Source: Kaistia sp. 32K
Lineage (GTDB): Bacteria; Pseudomonadota; Alphaproteobacteria; Rhizobiales; Kaistiaceae
Length of the DNA stretch: 64,000 nucleotides
NCBI RefSeq assembly: GCF_016629525.1
Contig: NZ_AP024269.1
Location: forward strand, 2,232,001 to 2,296,000
Direction of reading: 5' to 3'
This document shows positions 6,539-34,183 of the stretch, piece after piece. Position 1 is the first letter of the stretch, and each line of letters opens with the position of its first letter. Under the pieces are notes generated by a model, which was not told where the DNA came from, made no database searches, and was given only the letters and a program-made list of their open reading frames with translations. The position numbers were made by a program, and so were the translations under genes.

Positions 6539-9500
6539 ATGCATCTTGTCGCCGGAGAGATGGAGCGGATCGACGATGGCGGCAGCGCCGTCGATCTCGA
6601 CCAGTCGCCCGGCGACATCGTCATCCTGTCGGCCGCCGATACGGAGCTCGCCGCCTTCGCGGCGGCCTTCGCTGGCGCGCCGGAAGGGCCGTCGCTGCGC
6701 CTCGCCAATCTGATGCAGCTGACGCATCCCTATTCGGTCGATCTCTATCTGGAGAAGACGGTCGCCAAGGCGAAGCTCGTCTTCATCCGGATGATGGGCG
6801 GCGTCGGCTACTGGCCCTACGGGCTGGAGGCAATCCGGGCGCTCTCGCGCGCCGGCGGACCTCAAATCGTGGTGGTCCCCGGCGAGGATCGCTGGGATCC
6901 GGCGCTCGAGGCCTATTCGACTGTGGCGCCCGAGATCGCGCACAGGCTCTGGCGCTATTGCGCCGAGGGCGGCGCGGTCAATATCGGCCGCGGGCTCGCC
7001 TATACCAGACACGTCGTCGACGGGGGAGAAGCGCCGCCGGAGCCGCAGGTTCTGCCCGAGGTCGGTTTCTACCGGCCGGGCGAGGGTGTCGTCGCGGACG
7101 CGCTGCGGCCGGAAGACGCCGGCCGGCCGGTGGCGTTCCTCACCTTCTATCGTTCGGTCATTCCCGGCGGCTCGACCGAGCCGATCGACGCCATGGTGGA
7201 AGCGCTCGATCGCGAAGGCATCGCCACGGTGGCGATCTTCGCCTCCAGCCTCAAGAACGAGGAAGCGGCGGCCTTCGTCGACAGAGCTTTCGACGCGCTG
7301 GATCCCGCCATCGTGCTCAATGCCACCGCCTTCGCCATCTCGCGCCCCGGTCGGGCGCATGAGCCGACCGTGCTCGACCGCGCCGGCAAGCCGGTGCTGC
7401 AACTCGTCTTCGCCGGCACCAGCCGCGAGGCGTGGCTCGAATCCACGCGCGGTCTCGGCCCGCGCGATCTGATCATGAATGTCGTGCTGCCGGAGGTGGA
7501 TGGCCGGATCCTGACCCGCGCCGTCTCGTTCAAGGAAGAGGTCGAAAGCGACGGCCGGACCGACAGCCGCATCGTCGTCTATCGCGCCGACCGTGAGCGC
7601 ATCGCGTTCGTCGCGGCGCAGGCGGCGAACTGGGTCCGGCTTGCCGCGAAGACTGCCGCCGACCGCAAGATCGCGCTCGTGCTCTCCAACTATCCCGACC
7701 GTGACGGCCGCCTCGCCAACGGCGTCGGCCTCGACACGCCGGAAAGCGCGGCTCGGATTGCCACCGCCATGAAGGGCGCGGGCTATGCGCTGGAGGGCTT
7801 TCCGGAGACGGGCAGGGCGCTGATGGAGCTCCTGCTCTCCGGCCCGACCAACGCGCTGGCGAAGCGGATGGAGCTTCGGGAAAAGGGGTCCGTTCCTTCA
7901 CCTCTCCCCGAGGGAGAGGTCGGCCCGGAGGGCCGGGTGAGGGGTTCAGACCTATCCGTTGAAGGCGCAACCCCTCACCCGCCGGCTTCGCCGTCGACCT
8001 CTCCCTCTGGGAGAGGTGAAGAGATCGAGCTTTCCCTCGCCGACTACCGCGCCTTCCACGACGCGCTGCCGGAATCCGTGCGCGAAAGCCTCGCCAAGCG
8101 CTGGGGCGAGCCCGACGCCGACCCCTTCTTCGCCGAAGGCGCCTTCCGGCTTGCCATTCATCGCTTCGGCAATGTCGTGGTCGGCATCCAGCCGGCGCGC
8201 GGCTATGGCATCGATCCCAAGGCGACCTATCACGATCCCGACCTCGTGCCGACGCACCACTATCTCGCCTTCCATGCGTGGCTGCGGACGCAGTTCGGCG
8301 TCGATGCGATCGTGCATGTCGGCAAGCACGGCAATCTCGAATGGCTGCCGGGCAAGGCGCTCGGCCTGTCGAATGCCTGCTGGCCGGAGGTCATTCTCGG
8401 CCCGACGCCGCTGATCTATCCCTTCATCGTCAACGATCCCGGCGAGGGCGCGCAGGCAAAGCGCCGCGCCTCGGCCGTCGTCGTCGACCATCTCATGCCG
8501 GCGCTGACGCGGGCCGAGGCGCATGGCGCCTTCGCCGAGATCGAGACGCTGATCGACGAGTACCATCTGGCGCTCGGCGCCGATCCGCGCCGGCGCGACC
8601 ATCTCGAACGCGAAATTTTTGATCAGGCGGTGCGCCACGGCATCGACCGCGATCTCGGCATCGGTCGCGACGCCGACGCCGGCAGCGCGCTCCGCGCCAT
8701 CGACGCGCATCTCTGCGAGATCAAGGAACTGCAGATCCGCGACGGGCTGCACATCTTCGGAAGTTCTCCGATCGACGAGCACCGCCTCGATACGCTTGTT
8801 GCGATCGCCCGCGTGCCGCGTTCCGGCGGGCGCCCGGAAGACGGCTCGCTGCACCGCGCGATCGCTGCCGATCTCGGCCTCGACGGTTTCGACCCGCTCG
8901 CCTGCGATCTCTCGGCCGACTGGGAGGGCACGAGGCCGGACGCGCTTGCCGGCGCAACCGATGCGCCGTGGCGCACCAATGGCGACACGGTCGAGCGGAT
9001 CGAGGTCCTGGCAAAGGGAATCGTCGCCTCAGCCCTTCTCCCTCCCCCTTGTGGGGAGGGTTGGGGAGGGGGAATGCCGGGCGTAGAGCTCAATGCTGAG
9101 GAAGCGCTCAATTCGGATGGGCTCCCCCCACTCCAACTCTCCCCCACAAGGGGTGTGGGAGCGCCGGCGCCGGGCCCTGCCACGGCGCCCGTGCTCGACT
9201 GGATCGTGCAGGAACTGGCCCCGGCGCTAGACCGTTGCGGAACGGAAGAAATCGCCGCCGTGCTGACGGCGCTCGATGGGCGCTTCGTGCCGCCCGGCCC
9301 CTCCGGCGCGCCGTCGCGCGGACGGCCGGACGTGCTGCCGACGGGCAAGAACTTCTATTCGGTCGACACGAGGGCCGTGCCGACCGCTGCCGCCTGGCGG
9401 ATCGGCAAGGCCGCTGCCGAGGCGCTGGTGCTGCGCTACATGCAGGACGAGGGCGAGTGGCTGCGCTCCGTGGCGATCTCCGCCTGGGGCACCGCCAACA

Positions 9501-10501
9501 TGCGCACCGGCGGCGACGACATCGCGCAGGTGCTCGCTCTGATCGGCGCCGAGCCGGTCTGGGAAGCGGGCACCGGTCGCGTCACCGGGTTTCGCGTGCT
9601 CACGCTTTCCGAGCTGAAGCGCCCCCGCGTCGACGTCACGCTGCGGATTTCCGGCATGTTCCGTGACGCCTTCCCGGAGCAGATCGACCTGATCGATTCC
9701 GCCATCCGCGCCGTCGCCGCGCGCGACGAGCCGGCGGACGCCAATCCGATCGCGGCCGCCCATGGCGCGGGCCAGGACCTCGCCCGCATCTTCGGCTCGA
9801 AGCCCGGTTCCTATGGCGCCGGCCTGCAGGCGATGATCGACGAGAGAATCTGGGACAGCCGCGCCGATCTCGCGGAAGCCTTCCTCGCTTGGTCGAGCTT
9901 CGCCTATGGCGGCGGCGCCGAGGGCGAGGCGGCCGGCGACCGCCTGAAGGCGCGGCTCGCCGCGACCGACGCCGTCCTGCACAATCAGGACAATCGCGAG
10001 CACGACATTCTCGACAGCGACGATTACTACCAGTTCCAGGGCGGCCTCTCGGCGACGATCGAGACGCTGAAGGGCGCGGCGCCCCGGCTGTATCACGGTG
10101 ATCATTCCCGACCCGAAACACCCGTGGTGCGGCCGCTGGCGGAAGAGATCGGCCGTGTCGTGCGCGGGCGGGCGGTCAATCCGAAATGGATCGCCGGCTG
10201 CATGCGGCACGGCTACAAGGGCGCCTTCGAGATGGCGGCGACGCTCGACTATCTCTTCGCCTTCGCCGCGACGACGCACGCGGTTGGCGATCACCATTTC
10301 GATGCGCTCTACGACGCCTATATTGCCGATGACGACGTGCGCGCCTTCATCGCCGACGCCAATGAACCCGCGCTCGCCGAAATGGCGGACCGCTTTCTCG
10401 AAGCCATGGAACGCGGCCTCTGGTCGCCGCGCGCCAACAGCGCCTATCAACGGCTGGCAGCGCTTGCTTCCCGCCGCGACGCCCGAAAGGAATTCGCATG
10501 A
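6539..10501 (+). CDS. cobN: Cobaltochelatase subunit CobN
   Basis: Large subunit of the aerobic, ATP-dependent cobaltochelatase, which with CobS and CobT inserts cobalt into hydrogenobyrinic acid a,c-diamide. The 1320-residue product carries the BchH/CobN signature region near the N terminus (RMMGGVGYWPYGLEAI) and long conserved blocks such as VHVGKHGNLEWLPGKALGLS and GDHHFDALYDAY-like segments near the C terminus. It is somewhat longer than typical CobN (roughly 1270-1280) because two palindromic elements lie in frame at about residues 453-494 and 832-875; both are low-complexity and unlike the rest of the protein. The frame is open throughout, so the gene is probably functional. The stop overlaps cobO (ATGA). 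cobS and cobT are not in this window. Confidence 0.96.
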   Translation: MHLVAGEMERIDDGGSAVDLDQSPGDIVILSAADTELAAFAAAFAGAPEGPSLRLANLMQLTHPYSVDLYLEKTVAKAKLVFIRMMGGVGYWPYGLEAIRALSRAGGPQIVVVPGEDRWDPALEAYSTVAPEIAHRLWRYCAEGGAVNIGRGLAYTRHVVDGGEAPPEPQVLPEVGFYRPGEGVVADALRPEDAGRPVAFLTFYRSVIPGGSTEPIDAMVEALDREGIATVAIFASSLKNEEAAAFVDRAFDALDPAIVLNATAFAISRPGRAHEPTVLDRAGKPVLQLVFAGTSREAWLESTRGLGPRDLIMNVVLPEVDGRILTRAVSFKEEVESDGRTDSRIVVYRADRERIAFVAAQAANWVRLAAKTAADRKIALVLSNYPDRDGRLANGVGLDTPESAARIATAMKGAGYALEGFPETGRALMELLLSGPTNALAKRMELREKGSVPSPLPEGEVGPEGRVRGSDLSVEGATPHPPASPSTSPSGRGEEIELSLADYRAFHDALPESVRESLAKRWGEPDADPFFAEGAFRLAIHRFGNVVVGIQPARGYGIDPKATYHDPDLVPTHHYLAFHAWLRTQFGVDAIVHVGKHGNLEWLPGKALGLSNACWPEVILGPTPLIYPFIVNDPGEGAQAKRRASAVVVDHLMPALTRAEAHGAFAEIETLIDEYHLALGADPRRRDHLEREIFDQAVRHGIDRDLGIGRDADAGSALRAIDAHLCEIKELQIRDGLHIFGSSPIDEHRLDTLVAIARVPRSGGRPEDGSLHRAIAADLGLDGFDPLACDLSADWEGTRPDALAGATDAPWRTNGDTVERIEVLAKGIVASALLPPPCGEGWGGGMPGVELNAEEALNSDGLPPLQLSPTRGVGAPAPGPATAPVLDWIVQELAPALDRCGTEEIAAVLTALDGRFVPPGPSGAPSRGRPDVLPTGKNFYSVDTRAVPTAAAWRIGKAAAEALVLRYMQDEGEWLRSVAISAWGTANMRTGGDDIAQVLALIGAEPVWEAGTGRVTGFRVLTLSELKRPRVDVTLRISGMFRDAFPEQIDLIDSAIRAVAARDEPADANPIAAAHGAGQDLARIFGSKPGSYGAGLQAMIDERIWDSRADLAEAFLAWSSFAYGGGAEGEAAGDRLKARLAATDAVLHNQDNREHDILDSDDYYQFQGGLSATIETLKGAAPRLYHGDHSRPETPVVRPLAEEIGRVVRGRAVNPKWIAGCMRHGYKGAFEMAATLDYLFAFAATTHAVGDHHFDALYDAYIADDDVRAFIADANEPALAEMADRFLEAMERGLWSPRANSAYQRLAALASRRDARKEFA
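7897..8020 (+). repeat. Inverted-repeat element inserted in frame within cobN (family A)
   Basis: Two arms face each other: TTCACCTCTCCCC... (7897-7946) and its imperfect reverse complement ending GGGAGAGGTGAA (to 8020). Each arm itself contains a short palindrome (ACCTCTCCC/GGGAGAGGT) and a GC-rich hairpin, and about 22 nt of spacer separates the arms. The element is translated without a stop into a Pro/Gly/Ser/Glu-rich stretch, roughly CobN residues 453-494. A single-arm relative lies in the intergenic region at 26889-26940. Confidence 0.85.
9034..9161 (+). repeat. Second inverted-repeat element inserted in frame within cobN (family B)
   Basis: The left arm, CCCTTCTCCCTCCCCC with TTGTGGGGAGGG (9034-9072), is mirrored by the right arm CTCCAACTCTCCCCC with ACAAGGGG (9122-9161). 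Central non-repetitive sequence of about 50 nt separates them. It is translated as a Pro/Gly/Leu-rich insertion at about CobN residues 832-875 with no frame disruption. The sequence is different from the first cobN element but the architecture is the same. Confidence 0.8.
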
Positions 10502-32821: not shown

Positions 32822-34183
32822 ATGCCGATCAATATCCTGATGCCCGCGCTTTCGCCGACCATGGAAGAGGGCAACCTCGCCAAGTGGAACGTGAAGGTTG
32901 GCGACAAGGTCAAGTCGGGCGATGTCATCGCCGAGATCGAGACCGACAAGGCGACGATGGAAGTCGAATCCATCGATGAAGGCACCGTTGGCCAGCTGCT
33001 GGTGCCCGAGGGCGCGCAAGGCGTGAAGGTCAACGCGCTGATCGCCGTGCTTCTGGCGGAAGGCGAAGATGCCAGCGCCGTCGGCGCCGCGCCCGCCGCT
33101 GCCCCGGCGCCCGCGGCCGCTCCGGCCGCGGCACCCGCTCCGGCAGCTTCGGCTCCGGCCGCGACGCCAGCTCCCGCAGCGCCGGCAGCGGCTCCCGCAG
33201 CACCGGCGGCAGCGGCTCCCGCGGCCCAGGCCGGTGATCGCGTCTTCGCATCGCCGCTGGCCCGCCGCATCGCCAAGGAAGCCGGGATCGACCTCTCCAA
33301 GGTCAACGGCTCCGGTCCGCATGGCCGCGTCGTCCAGGCTGATGTCGAGGCTGCCAAGCAGGGTGGCGTCGCCAAGGCCGCGCCGGCTCCCGCCGCGGCT
33401 CCGGCGCCTGCCGCCGCGACCGCTGCTCCGGCTCACTCTGGCCCGACCGACGCGCAGACGCTCAAGCTGTTCGCAGAAGGCTCGTACGATCTCGTGCCGC
33501 ATGACAACATGCGCAAGACGATCGCCCGCCGCCTGACGGAATCGAAGCAGAACGTCCCGCACTTCTACGTCACGGTCGATACCGAGCTCGACGCGCTGCT
33601 GGCGCTGCGCGAGCAGATCAACGGTGCCGCGCCGAAGGATGCCGACGGCAAGCCGGCCTACAAGGTCTCGGTCAACGACATGGTCATCAAGGCCATGGCG
33701 CTGGCGCTGAAGAAGGTTCCGGGCGCCAACGCGTCGTGGACCGATGGCGGTATGCTCGTCCACAAGGTGGTCGATGTCGGCGTCGCCGTCTCGATCCCCG
33801 GCGGCCTGATCACCCCGGTCGTCCGCAATGCCGAGACCAAGTCGCTCTCGACCATCTCGAACGAGATGAAGGACCTCGCCAAGCGGGCGCGCGAGCGCAA
33901 GCTGAAGCCAGAGGAATACCAGGGCGGCACGACCTCGGTCTCCAACCTCGGCATGTTCGGCGTCAAGGACTTCGCGGCGATCATTAACCCGCCGCATGCG
34001 ACGATCCTCGCCGTCGGCGCGGGCATCCAGCAGCCGGTCGTGCGCGGCGGCGAGATCAAGATCGCGACCATCATGTCGGTCACGCTCTCGACCGACCATC
34101 GCGTCGTCGACGGCGCGCTCGGGGCCGAGCTCCTGCAGGCCTTCAAGGGCTACATCGAGAAGCCCATGGCGATGCTGGTCTGA
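32822..34183 (+). CDS. pdhC: Dihydrolipoamide acetyltransferase, PDH E2
   Basis: Core of the pyruvate dehydrogenase complex, 453 residues. Lipoyl domain 1-78 (Lys43 in [10 protein letters not shown]), long Ala/Pro linker (about 88-135), E1/E3-binding domain (FASPLARRIAKEAGIDLSKV and GRVVQADVEA), second Ala/Pro linker, and the acyltransferase domain from about residue 220, with catalytic His426 in TDHRVVDG. The ATG at 32822 lies 7 nt after the DUF5076 stop. One lipoyl domain in E2 plus one in E1 beta gives two per E1-E2 unit. Confidence 0.96.
   Translation: MPINILMPALSPTMEEGNLAKWNVKVGDKVKSGDVIAEIETDKATMEVESIDEGTVGQLLVPEGAQGVKVNALIAVLLAEGEDASAVGAAPAAAPAPAAAPAAAPAPAASAPAATPAPAAPAAAPAAPAAAAPAAQAGDRVFASPLARRIAKEAGIDLSKVNGSGPHGRVVQADVEAAKQGGVAKAAPAPAAAPAPAAATAAPAHSGPTDAQTLKLFAEGSYDLVPHDNMRKTIARRLTESKQNVPHFYVTVDTELDALLALREQINGAAPKDADGKPAYKVSVNDMVIKAMALALKKVPGANASWTDGGMLVHKVVDVGVAVSIPGGLITPVVRNAETKSLSTISNEMKDLAKRARERKLKPEEYQGGTTSVSNLGMFGVKDFAAIINPPHATILAVGAGIQQPVVRGGEIKIATIMSVTLSTDHRVVDGALGAELLQAFKGYIEKPMAMLV

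Follow-up and report, generated by a model that had tools for sequence, protein, structure and literature searches.

CobN, the catalytic subunit of the aerobic cobaltochelatase, contains in Kaistia sp. 32K an in-frame copy of a palindromic element that is dispersed through the genome of the same organism. This element, here designated type A, was noticed in an initial annotation of the window (the whole stretch of DNA analyzed, 64,000 nucleotides), and its presence in cobN is confirmed as real. The reading that we hold to be very probable is that type A is a palindromic element of the MITE or RIME sort, non-autonomous and dispersed in the genome, that has been kept in a tolerant surface loop of CobN, and that the loops of this protein have caught unrelated elements independently. 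The insertion is not peculiar to Kaistia sp. 32K, and the same gene has a second insert that was absent from the initial annotation. CobN has at least two tolerant loops, at about residues 439-497 (loop 1) and 827-884 (loop 2) of the window protein. The features are included in Table 1.

Table 1. The cobN gene and its palindromic inserts, with positions in the window
Feature	Position	Strand	Basis
cobN, host gene of the inserts, encoding the catalytic subunit of aerobic cobaltochelatase (1320 aa)	6539..10501	+	Pfam PF02514 at residues 138-1300 (E 0); match to PDB CobN chains 9uk9 and 7c6o
Type A palindromic element in loop 1, 126 bp, residues 453-494; dispersed repeat of own genome	7896..8021	+	Arms, genome matches, alignment of copies
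Left arm of type A, itself a short palindrome	7896..7922	+	Inverted-repeat analysis
Right arm of type A, itself a short palindrome, 96% complementary to left arm	7995..8021	+	Inverted-repeat analysis
Inner inverted repeat of type A, CGGGTGAGGGGTT / AACCCCTCACCCG, including spacer	7934..7981	+	Inverted-repeat analysis
Palindromic element of a second family in loop 2, at about residues 833-875 (approximate ends)	9035..9161	+	Genome matches, empty site in relatives, codon-usage dip

In the cobN copy, two arms of 27 nt each enclose the inner inverted repeat, and the element occupies 42 codons with the reading frame open on both sides, the encoded residues being those given initially. The element had been described as 124 bp long, with two palindromic arms and dispersed kin; the arms and the dispersal hold, but the length is 126 bp. 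Its ends were placed where they are because conservation in 41 aligned copies (120-135 bp, cobN copy included) extends from CTTCACC to GGTGAAG and drops outside. The earlier measure had trimmed two bases and so created a frame puzzle, from which flanking adjustment or target duplication was deduced; this deduction falls, as the length is a multiple of three and no direct repeat flanking positions 7896 and 8021 was seen by eye in the cobN copy, the one copy inspected, where the insertion is old. The aligned copies measure 128 bp (17 copies), 129 bp (17), 126 bp (3) or other lengths (4); type A as a whole is mostly 126-129 bp long and also has a longer subfamily. The length is divisible by three in 21 of the 41, eight (the cobN copy included) are open in the CobN frame, and of the 246 frames in total (six per copy) 48 are open.

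A search of the Kaistia sp. 32K genome with the type A element gave at least 84 match rows, most places being matched on both strands (best 40 of 168 candidate places scored). The dispersal of the arm sequence anticipated in the initial annotation was borne out, as the arm pattern (three-base spacer, up to 2 mismatches) occurs 157 times in the genome versus once for a reversed control. The genome list of single arms covered up to 3.35 Mb, and 56 stretches around matches were fetched, so that the copies described here are a partial set of those in the genome. Genes around the copies were called with a simple codon-usage script, and a copy was counted as two-armed when each arm had at most 3 mismatches. 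On this basis 51 of 52 two-armed copies are intergenic, and the sole genic one is that in cobN. The intergenic copies lie between convergent genes (32), genes in line (16) or divergent genes (2), with one undetermined, and at least one of the 51 (L091 196-329) belongs, judged by eye, to another, similar family. Among 22 single arms, one is that of cobN loop 2 and another (L127) extends over the beginning of a called ORF. One intergenic copy is 97% identical to the cobN element over 126 nt, and another is 94% identical over 124 nt. The relative G021 gives a similar picture: the 21 other two-armed copies located in 20 of its stretches are all intergenic, and loop 2 of its CobN holds a type A copy. 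One intergenic region of Kaistia sp. 32K (L096 1416-2475; 792,415-793,475 of the genome) holds a series of four type A copies at a spacing of about 310 bp.

Type A has the properties of a MITE, namely a length within 70-300 bp, too little room for a transposase gene, and terminal inverted repeats (CTTCACC/GGTGAAG). The cobN insert also has those of a protein-coding palindromic repeat, being palindromic, dispersed in the genome, in frame in a conserved gene and absent from some orthologues. The mobility of type A is deduced from its dispersal because neither a transposase link nor a target duplication was found. The Y1 (RAYT-type) transposase family PF01797 has no match in the Kaistia sp. 32K genome, while 5 of 14 control genomes were positive, and mobilization by RAYT or membership of the REP/REPIN class was rejected on that account. 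Assignment to a known RNA family was likewise rejected, since Rfam gave four weak matches below the gathering score and none on the element. An assembly or MAG artefact is unlikely, as the genome with the insert is a single contig and several named isolates have the insert as well.

The loop 2 element belongs to a second family. It gave at least 32 match rows in its own genome, itself included (best 40 of 56 candidates scored), and most of these correspond to the left arm (26-43 nt, 87-100% identity). Three relatives, K. terrae, K. defluvii and G018, have an insert-free loop 2 site. Sixteen clusters of this family were examined in 15 stretches: 14 are intergenic, another lies right at the end of an ORF, and the last forms an in-frame part of an ATP-dependent DNA ligase, at residues 97-134 of 593 (L229 1478-1589, at about 350,077-350,188 of the genome). 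The ligase insert is located inside a weak Pfam match to the N-terminal domain, and its codon score is negative. In the window, the codon-usage score falls below the chosen threshold in 2 of 46 called genes, which are cobN (at both inserts) and the gene at 32822-34180 (at the Ala/Pro linker of its protein).

Orthologues were compared in a Kaistia-family set of 21 CobNs, the window's included. The contig of G012 starts within a long loop 1, so that 20 of the proteins could be measured for this loop: 14 have a loop 1 of 26-92 aa and 6 have one of 7-18 aa. The lengths of loop 2 fall into two ranges, 42-89 aa (11 of 21 proteins) and 17-27 aa (10 of 21). Type A occupies the same place in loop 1 in the window genome, in K. 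granuli (its nearest named relative found), K. adipata, K. terrae, K. defluvii (left half only) and G018. The initial annotation had proposed to see whether the segment is absent from orthologues of related species, and the outcome is mixed: five other CobNs of the genus carry it, one as a left half, others lack it, and the DNA itself is a dispersed repeat. A PLPQAGEG-type unit is found beside type A in loop 1 of K. adipata, K. terrae, K. defluvii and G018. Other inserts are present in the CobNs of K. dalseonensis, G015, G021, G027, G007, G001, G004 and Bauldia, several of them with VIPAKAGI or RRKPGS...GF peptides. Six inserts of three family genomes (G006, G016 and G021) were searched in their own genomes, and 6 of 6 recur in at least one row among the matches listed. 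Within one genus there are CobNs without an insert, with one insert, with inserts in tandem and with a half-deleted insert. In G012 the assembly is interrupted within loop 1 of CobN, where the sequence is element-like (start of L196; near the end of G012 C17). The G027 CobN (L189) has about 129 extra residues near its N-terminus, at window-protein residues 44-50, with several element-like peptides.

The six type A copies inside CobNs are 126, 126, 180, 186, 186 and 129 bp long. Short copies (window genome and G018) and long ones (K. granuli, K. adipata and K. terrae) do not follow the tree, and GGGTTTA/TAAACCC is found both in these long copies and in the long subfamily of dispersed ones. In three of four same-version pairs, identity is higher within the element than in both flanks (for example, 93.7% versus 86% between the window genome and G018), but not in the fourth, K. 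adipata-K. terrae, nor between the window genome and K. granuli. Taken together, and with an identity comparison that is uneven, these observations are suggestive of gene conversion or exchange between dispersed copies and the cobN copy.

In more distant organisms, 74 CobN loci were aligned, and loop 1 is at most 10 aa long in all 74, while loop 2 reaches at least 38 aa in 12. Together with the short loops 1 of the family, this upholds the initial proposal that a dispersed palindromic element, in kind like those of Rickettsia, was inserted in cobN. Three database sets, each the best 120 of a search, were also compared after proteins of up to 1150 aa were dropped (1/119, 2/120 and 0/120; 356 proteins kept) and positions 1073-1078, a gap of the Kaistia reference, were set aside. 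Among these best matches, loop 2 is at least 34 aa long in 61 of 118 proteins of the cyanobacterial set (Pseudanabaena query), 21 of 120 of the Pseudomonas-query set and 27 of 118 of the window-query set. A loop 1 of at least 22 aa occurs in 36 of 118 proteins of the window-query set and in none of the 118 and 120 of the Pseudanabaena-query and Pseudomonas-query sets. Loop 2 varies in length in all groups, and a long loop 2 alone is no proof of an element.

This variability, and the fact that close Kaistia relatives have something at the loop 1 place, would be expected if the segment were an ordinary CobN loop that had grown by low-complexity sequence and resembled repeats by chance. We regard this explanation as almost certainly wrong: it is at odds with the near-identical intergenic copies, with the number of genome matches of type A and with the short loop 1 in part of the family and in all 74 distant CobNs. 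For type A it is already refuted by the dispersed copies.

The loop DNA of distant CobNs was searched in the respective genomes, and the following counts are among the matches listed. Pseudanabaena biceps, P. cinerea and Pseudomonas insulae have many further copies of their own inserts, Pseudomonas sp. BMS12 has one further row, and arm pieces of the Pegethrix loop occur elsewhere in its genome. The extra rows of a cyanobacterial MAG match related loops, not its own loop. The loop of L063 is a tandem heptamer. Unrelated sequences recur at the same loops. Such repeated hits could also arise if elements recognized a site in cobN at the DNA level, the recurrence being an insertion preference and not tolerance. 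This is highly improbable, as the inserts are of different families and lie in different flanking DNA across lineages, and the dispersed type A copies have no conserved flank beyond the element. Additional loops were seen in these alignments. Cyanobacterial CobNs have another loop at about window-protein residues 178-198, with stretches of at least 15 aa in 14 (at 178) and 47 (at 198) of 118 proteins, some of which may count twice; in L234 this loop is a PPQPPLRKGGE repeat. A third loop, at residue 783, has inserts of 18-59 aa in P0092, P0097 and P0098, one of them named Roseibium, and the P0098 insert includes a PLPQGEGWGEG-like peptide.

Other genes served as controls. Nine neighboring genes in 20 family stretches have 4 inserts of at least 12 aa in 47,325 residue-sequences. 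The 21 CobN sequences, with 1274 core columns, have 30 such segments, 24 of them at the two loops; the remainder are four at the reference gap at 1073-1078 and two that represent the separate N-terminal insert of G027. Three of the 4 neighbor-gene inserts are element-like, two in CobQ and one in a protein that we take to be CbtA-like. CobN is a hotspot but not the only target, because CobQ, the CbtA-like protein and the DNA ligase also carry inserts. The in-frame element-like peptides (e.g. MDPGFRRDDD and MDSGFRRND) are at about residue 243 of CobQ in two family genomes (L185, L180) and about residue 62 of the CbtA-like protein in one (L185). The paralogue ChlH, complete in four cyanobacterial genomes (the 926 aa piece of a fifth is incomplete and was set aside), has gap runs of 6 or more only near the N-terminal edge, plus one of 6 residues elsewhere; the CobNs of those four genomes vary at loop 2 and other loops.

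An AlphaFold2 model of residues 331-960 (62 sequences, mean pLDDT 74) matches the CobN 7c6o and ChlH structures. Placing the insertion on a structural model, as proposed initially, put it in a segment of low confidence: pLDDT is below 50 at residues 451-490 and at most of 841-861, each between helices or strands, and also at 390-394, 603-608, 655-662 and 925-948. The alignment to the solved CobN 9uk9 breaks at 449/496 and 842/876, adjoining both inserts.

Retention and recurrence between blocks of secondary structure could alternatively mean that the inserts are kept for a use of their mRNA hairpins or disordered peptide to CobN, such as ribosome slowing between structural blocks or operon regulation. 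Very strong hairpins in some inserts (e.g. Pseudanabaena), and the type A pairs in which the element is more alike than both flanks, fit this explanation, which we nevertheless consider very unlikely: many CobNs have no insert, insert sequence and length turn over, K. defluvii keeps only a left half, and the elements of K. adipata-K. terrae and of the window genome and K. granuli are not more alike than both flanks. The fuller proposal, in which CobN loops actively benefit, with hairpins slowing ribosomes or a disordered tether aiding the folding or assembly of this large chelatase subunit, and in which lineages repeatedly recruited their own palindromic repeats, is likewise very unlikely. Of 37 long loops, 20 are among the three strongest hairpin windows of their own gene; no such excess exists in other long loops (e.g. 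G001, G004, G027, L025, L041 and L063). With this mixed result, hairpin energy as a general mark of inserts was not used as proof.

If the preferred reading of a dispersed element kept in tolerant loops is correct, type A would have entered loop 1 in a common ancestor of several Kaistia species. Its retention would be owed to a length divisible by three, to the lack of stops in the frame that is read and to a loop in which about 40 poorly ordered residues are tolerated. The insert is predicted from its open frame to be made as peptide, and the effect of this peptide is probably near neutral. A palindromic element would persist within a gene only if its frame, its length and the protein surface at that point allow it, and purifying selection presumably clears most insertions elsewhere. 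CobN loops would independently catch unrelated elements, loop 1 in the Kaistia family and loop 2 also in Pseudanabaena and Pseudomonas, and the insert may later have been remodeled by exchange with dispersed copies. CobN would then be a replicated natural experiment, with different elements in the same loops in Alphaproteobacteria, Gammaproteobacteria and Cyanobacteria, and its natural variants would show at which sites a protein can accommodate foreign DNA. In a single enzyme with solved structures, it then becomes testable if palindromes in coding sequence are ever of use or are simply tolerated. Such insert segments should not be taken for CobN domains.

Several known systems resemble these inserts. 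The RIME elements of Rhizobium (Hyphomicrobiales) are intergenic and consist of two large palindromes of about 100 bp. To our knowledge RIME is intergenic, and type A, likened to it here by description and not by sequence, shares the two palindromes and the mainly intergenic location and differs by its genic copy. The Rickettsia palindromic elements (RPEs) were reportedly described by Ogata et al. in 2000 and 2002. According to the available portions of later papers, RPEs are palindromic repeats of ~100-150 bp that are found between genes and in frame in conserved genes, many Rickettsia genes being hit (PMC10969869, PMC2229807). The cobN element is like an RPE in being palindromic and both intergenic and in frame in a conserved gene, a likeness of description and not of sequence; in contrast to the RPEs as those portions present them, nearly all type A copies examined lie between genes, and a single protein has received elements of different families again and again in distant lineages. 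Intragenic REPs have been described in frame in coding genes of free-living bacteria by Di Nocera et al. 2013 (PMC3733652). In the parts of that article available, some genes are the sole coding target in their species, targets include DNA ligase and other repair genes, and recB of two Xanthomonas species has a REP at about one site. These REPs differ in being units of 20-40 bp that bear GTAG or CGTC tags, with a link to RAYT transposases for the GTAG group, and the words cobalt, chelatase and CobN are absent from the main text (PMC3733652). The enterobacterial RU-1/ERIC, RU-2 and RU-3 are, according to the abstract of Delihas 2007 (PMC2759123), intergenic MITE-like units of 103-168 bp that also form open frames within genes. 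They belong to other lineages and have other sequences, and the abstract mentions no protein that was hit repeatedly. In the literature searched (titles, abstract starts and passages), no description of repeats in CobN was found. In-frame palindromes have been described in Rickettsia and Wolbachia, and other bacteria have them in the form of short REPs or MITEs; with respect to the literature searched, we call new the repeated insertion, across phyla and by several element families, into the same loops of a single enzyme.
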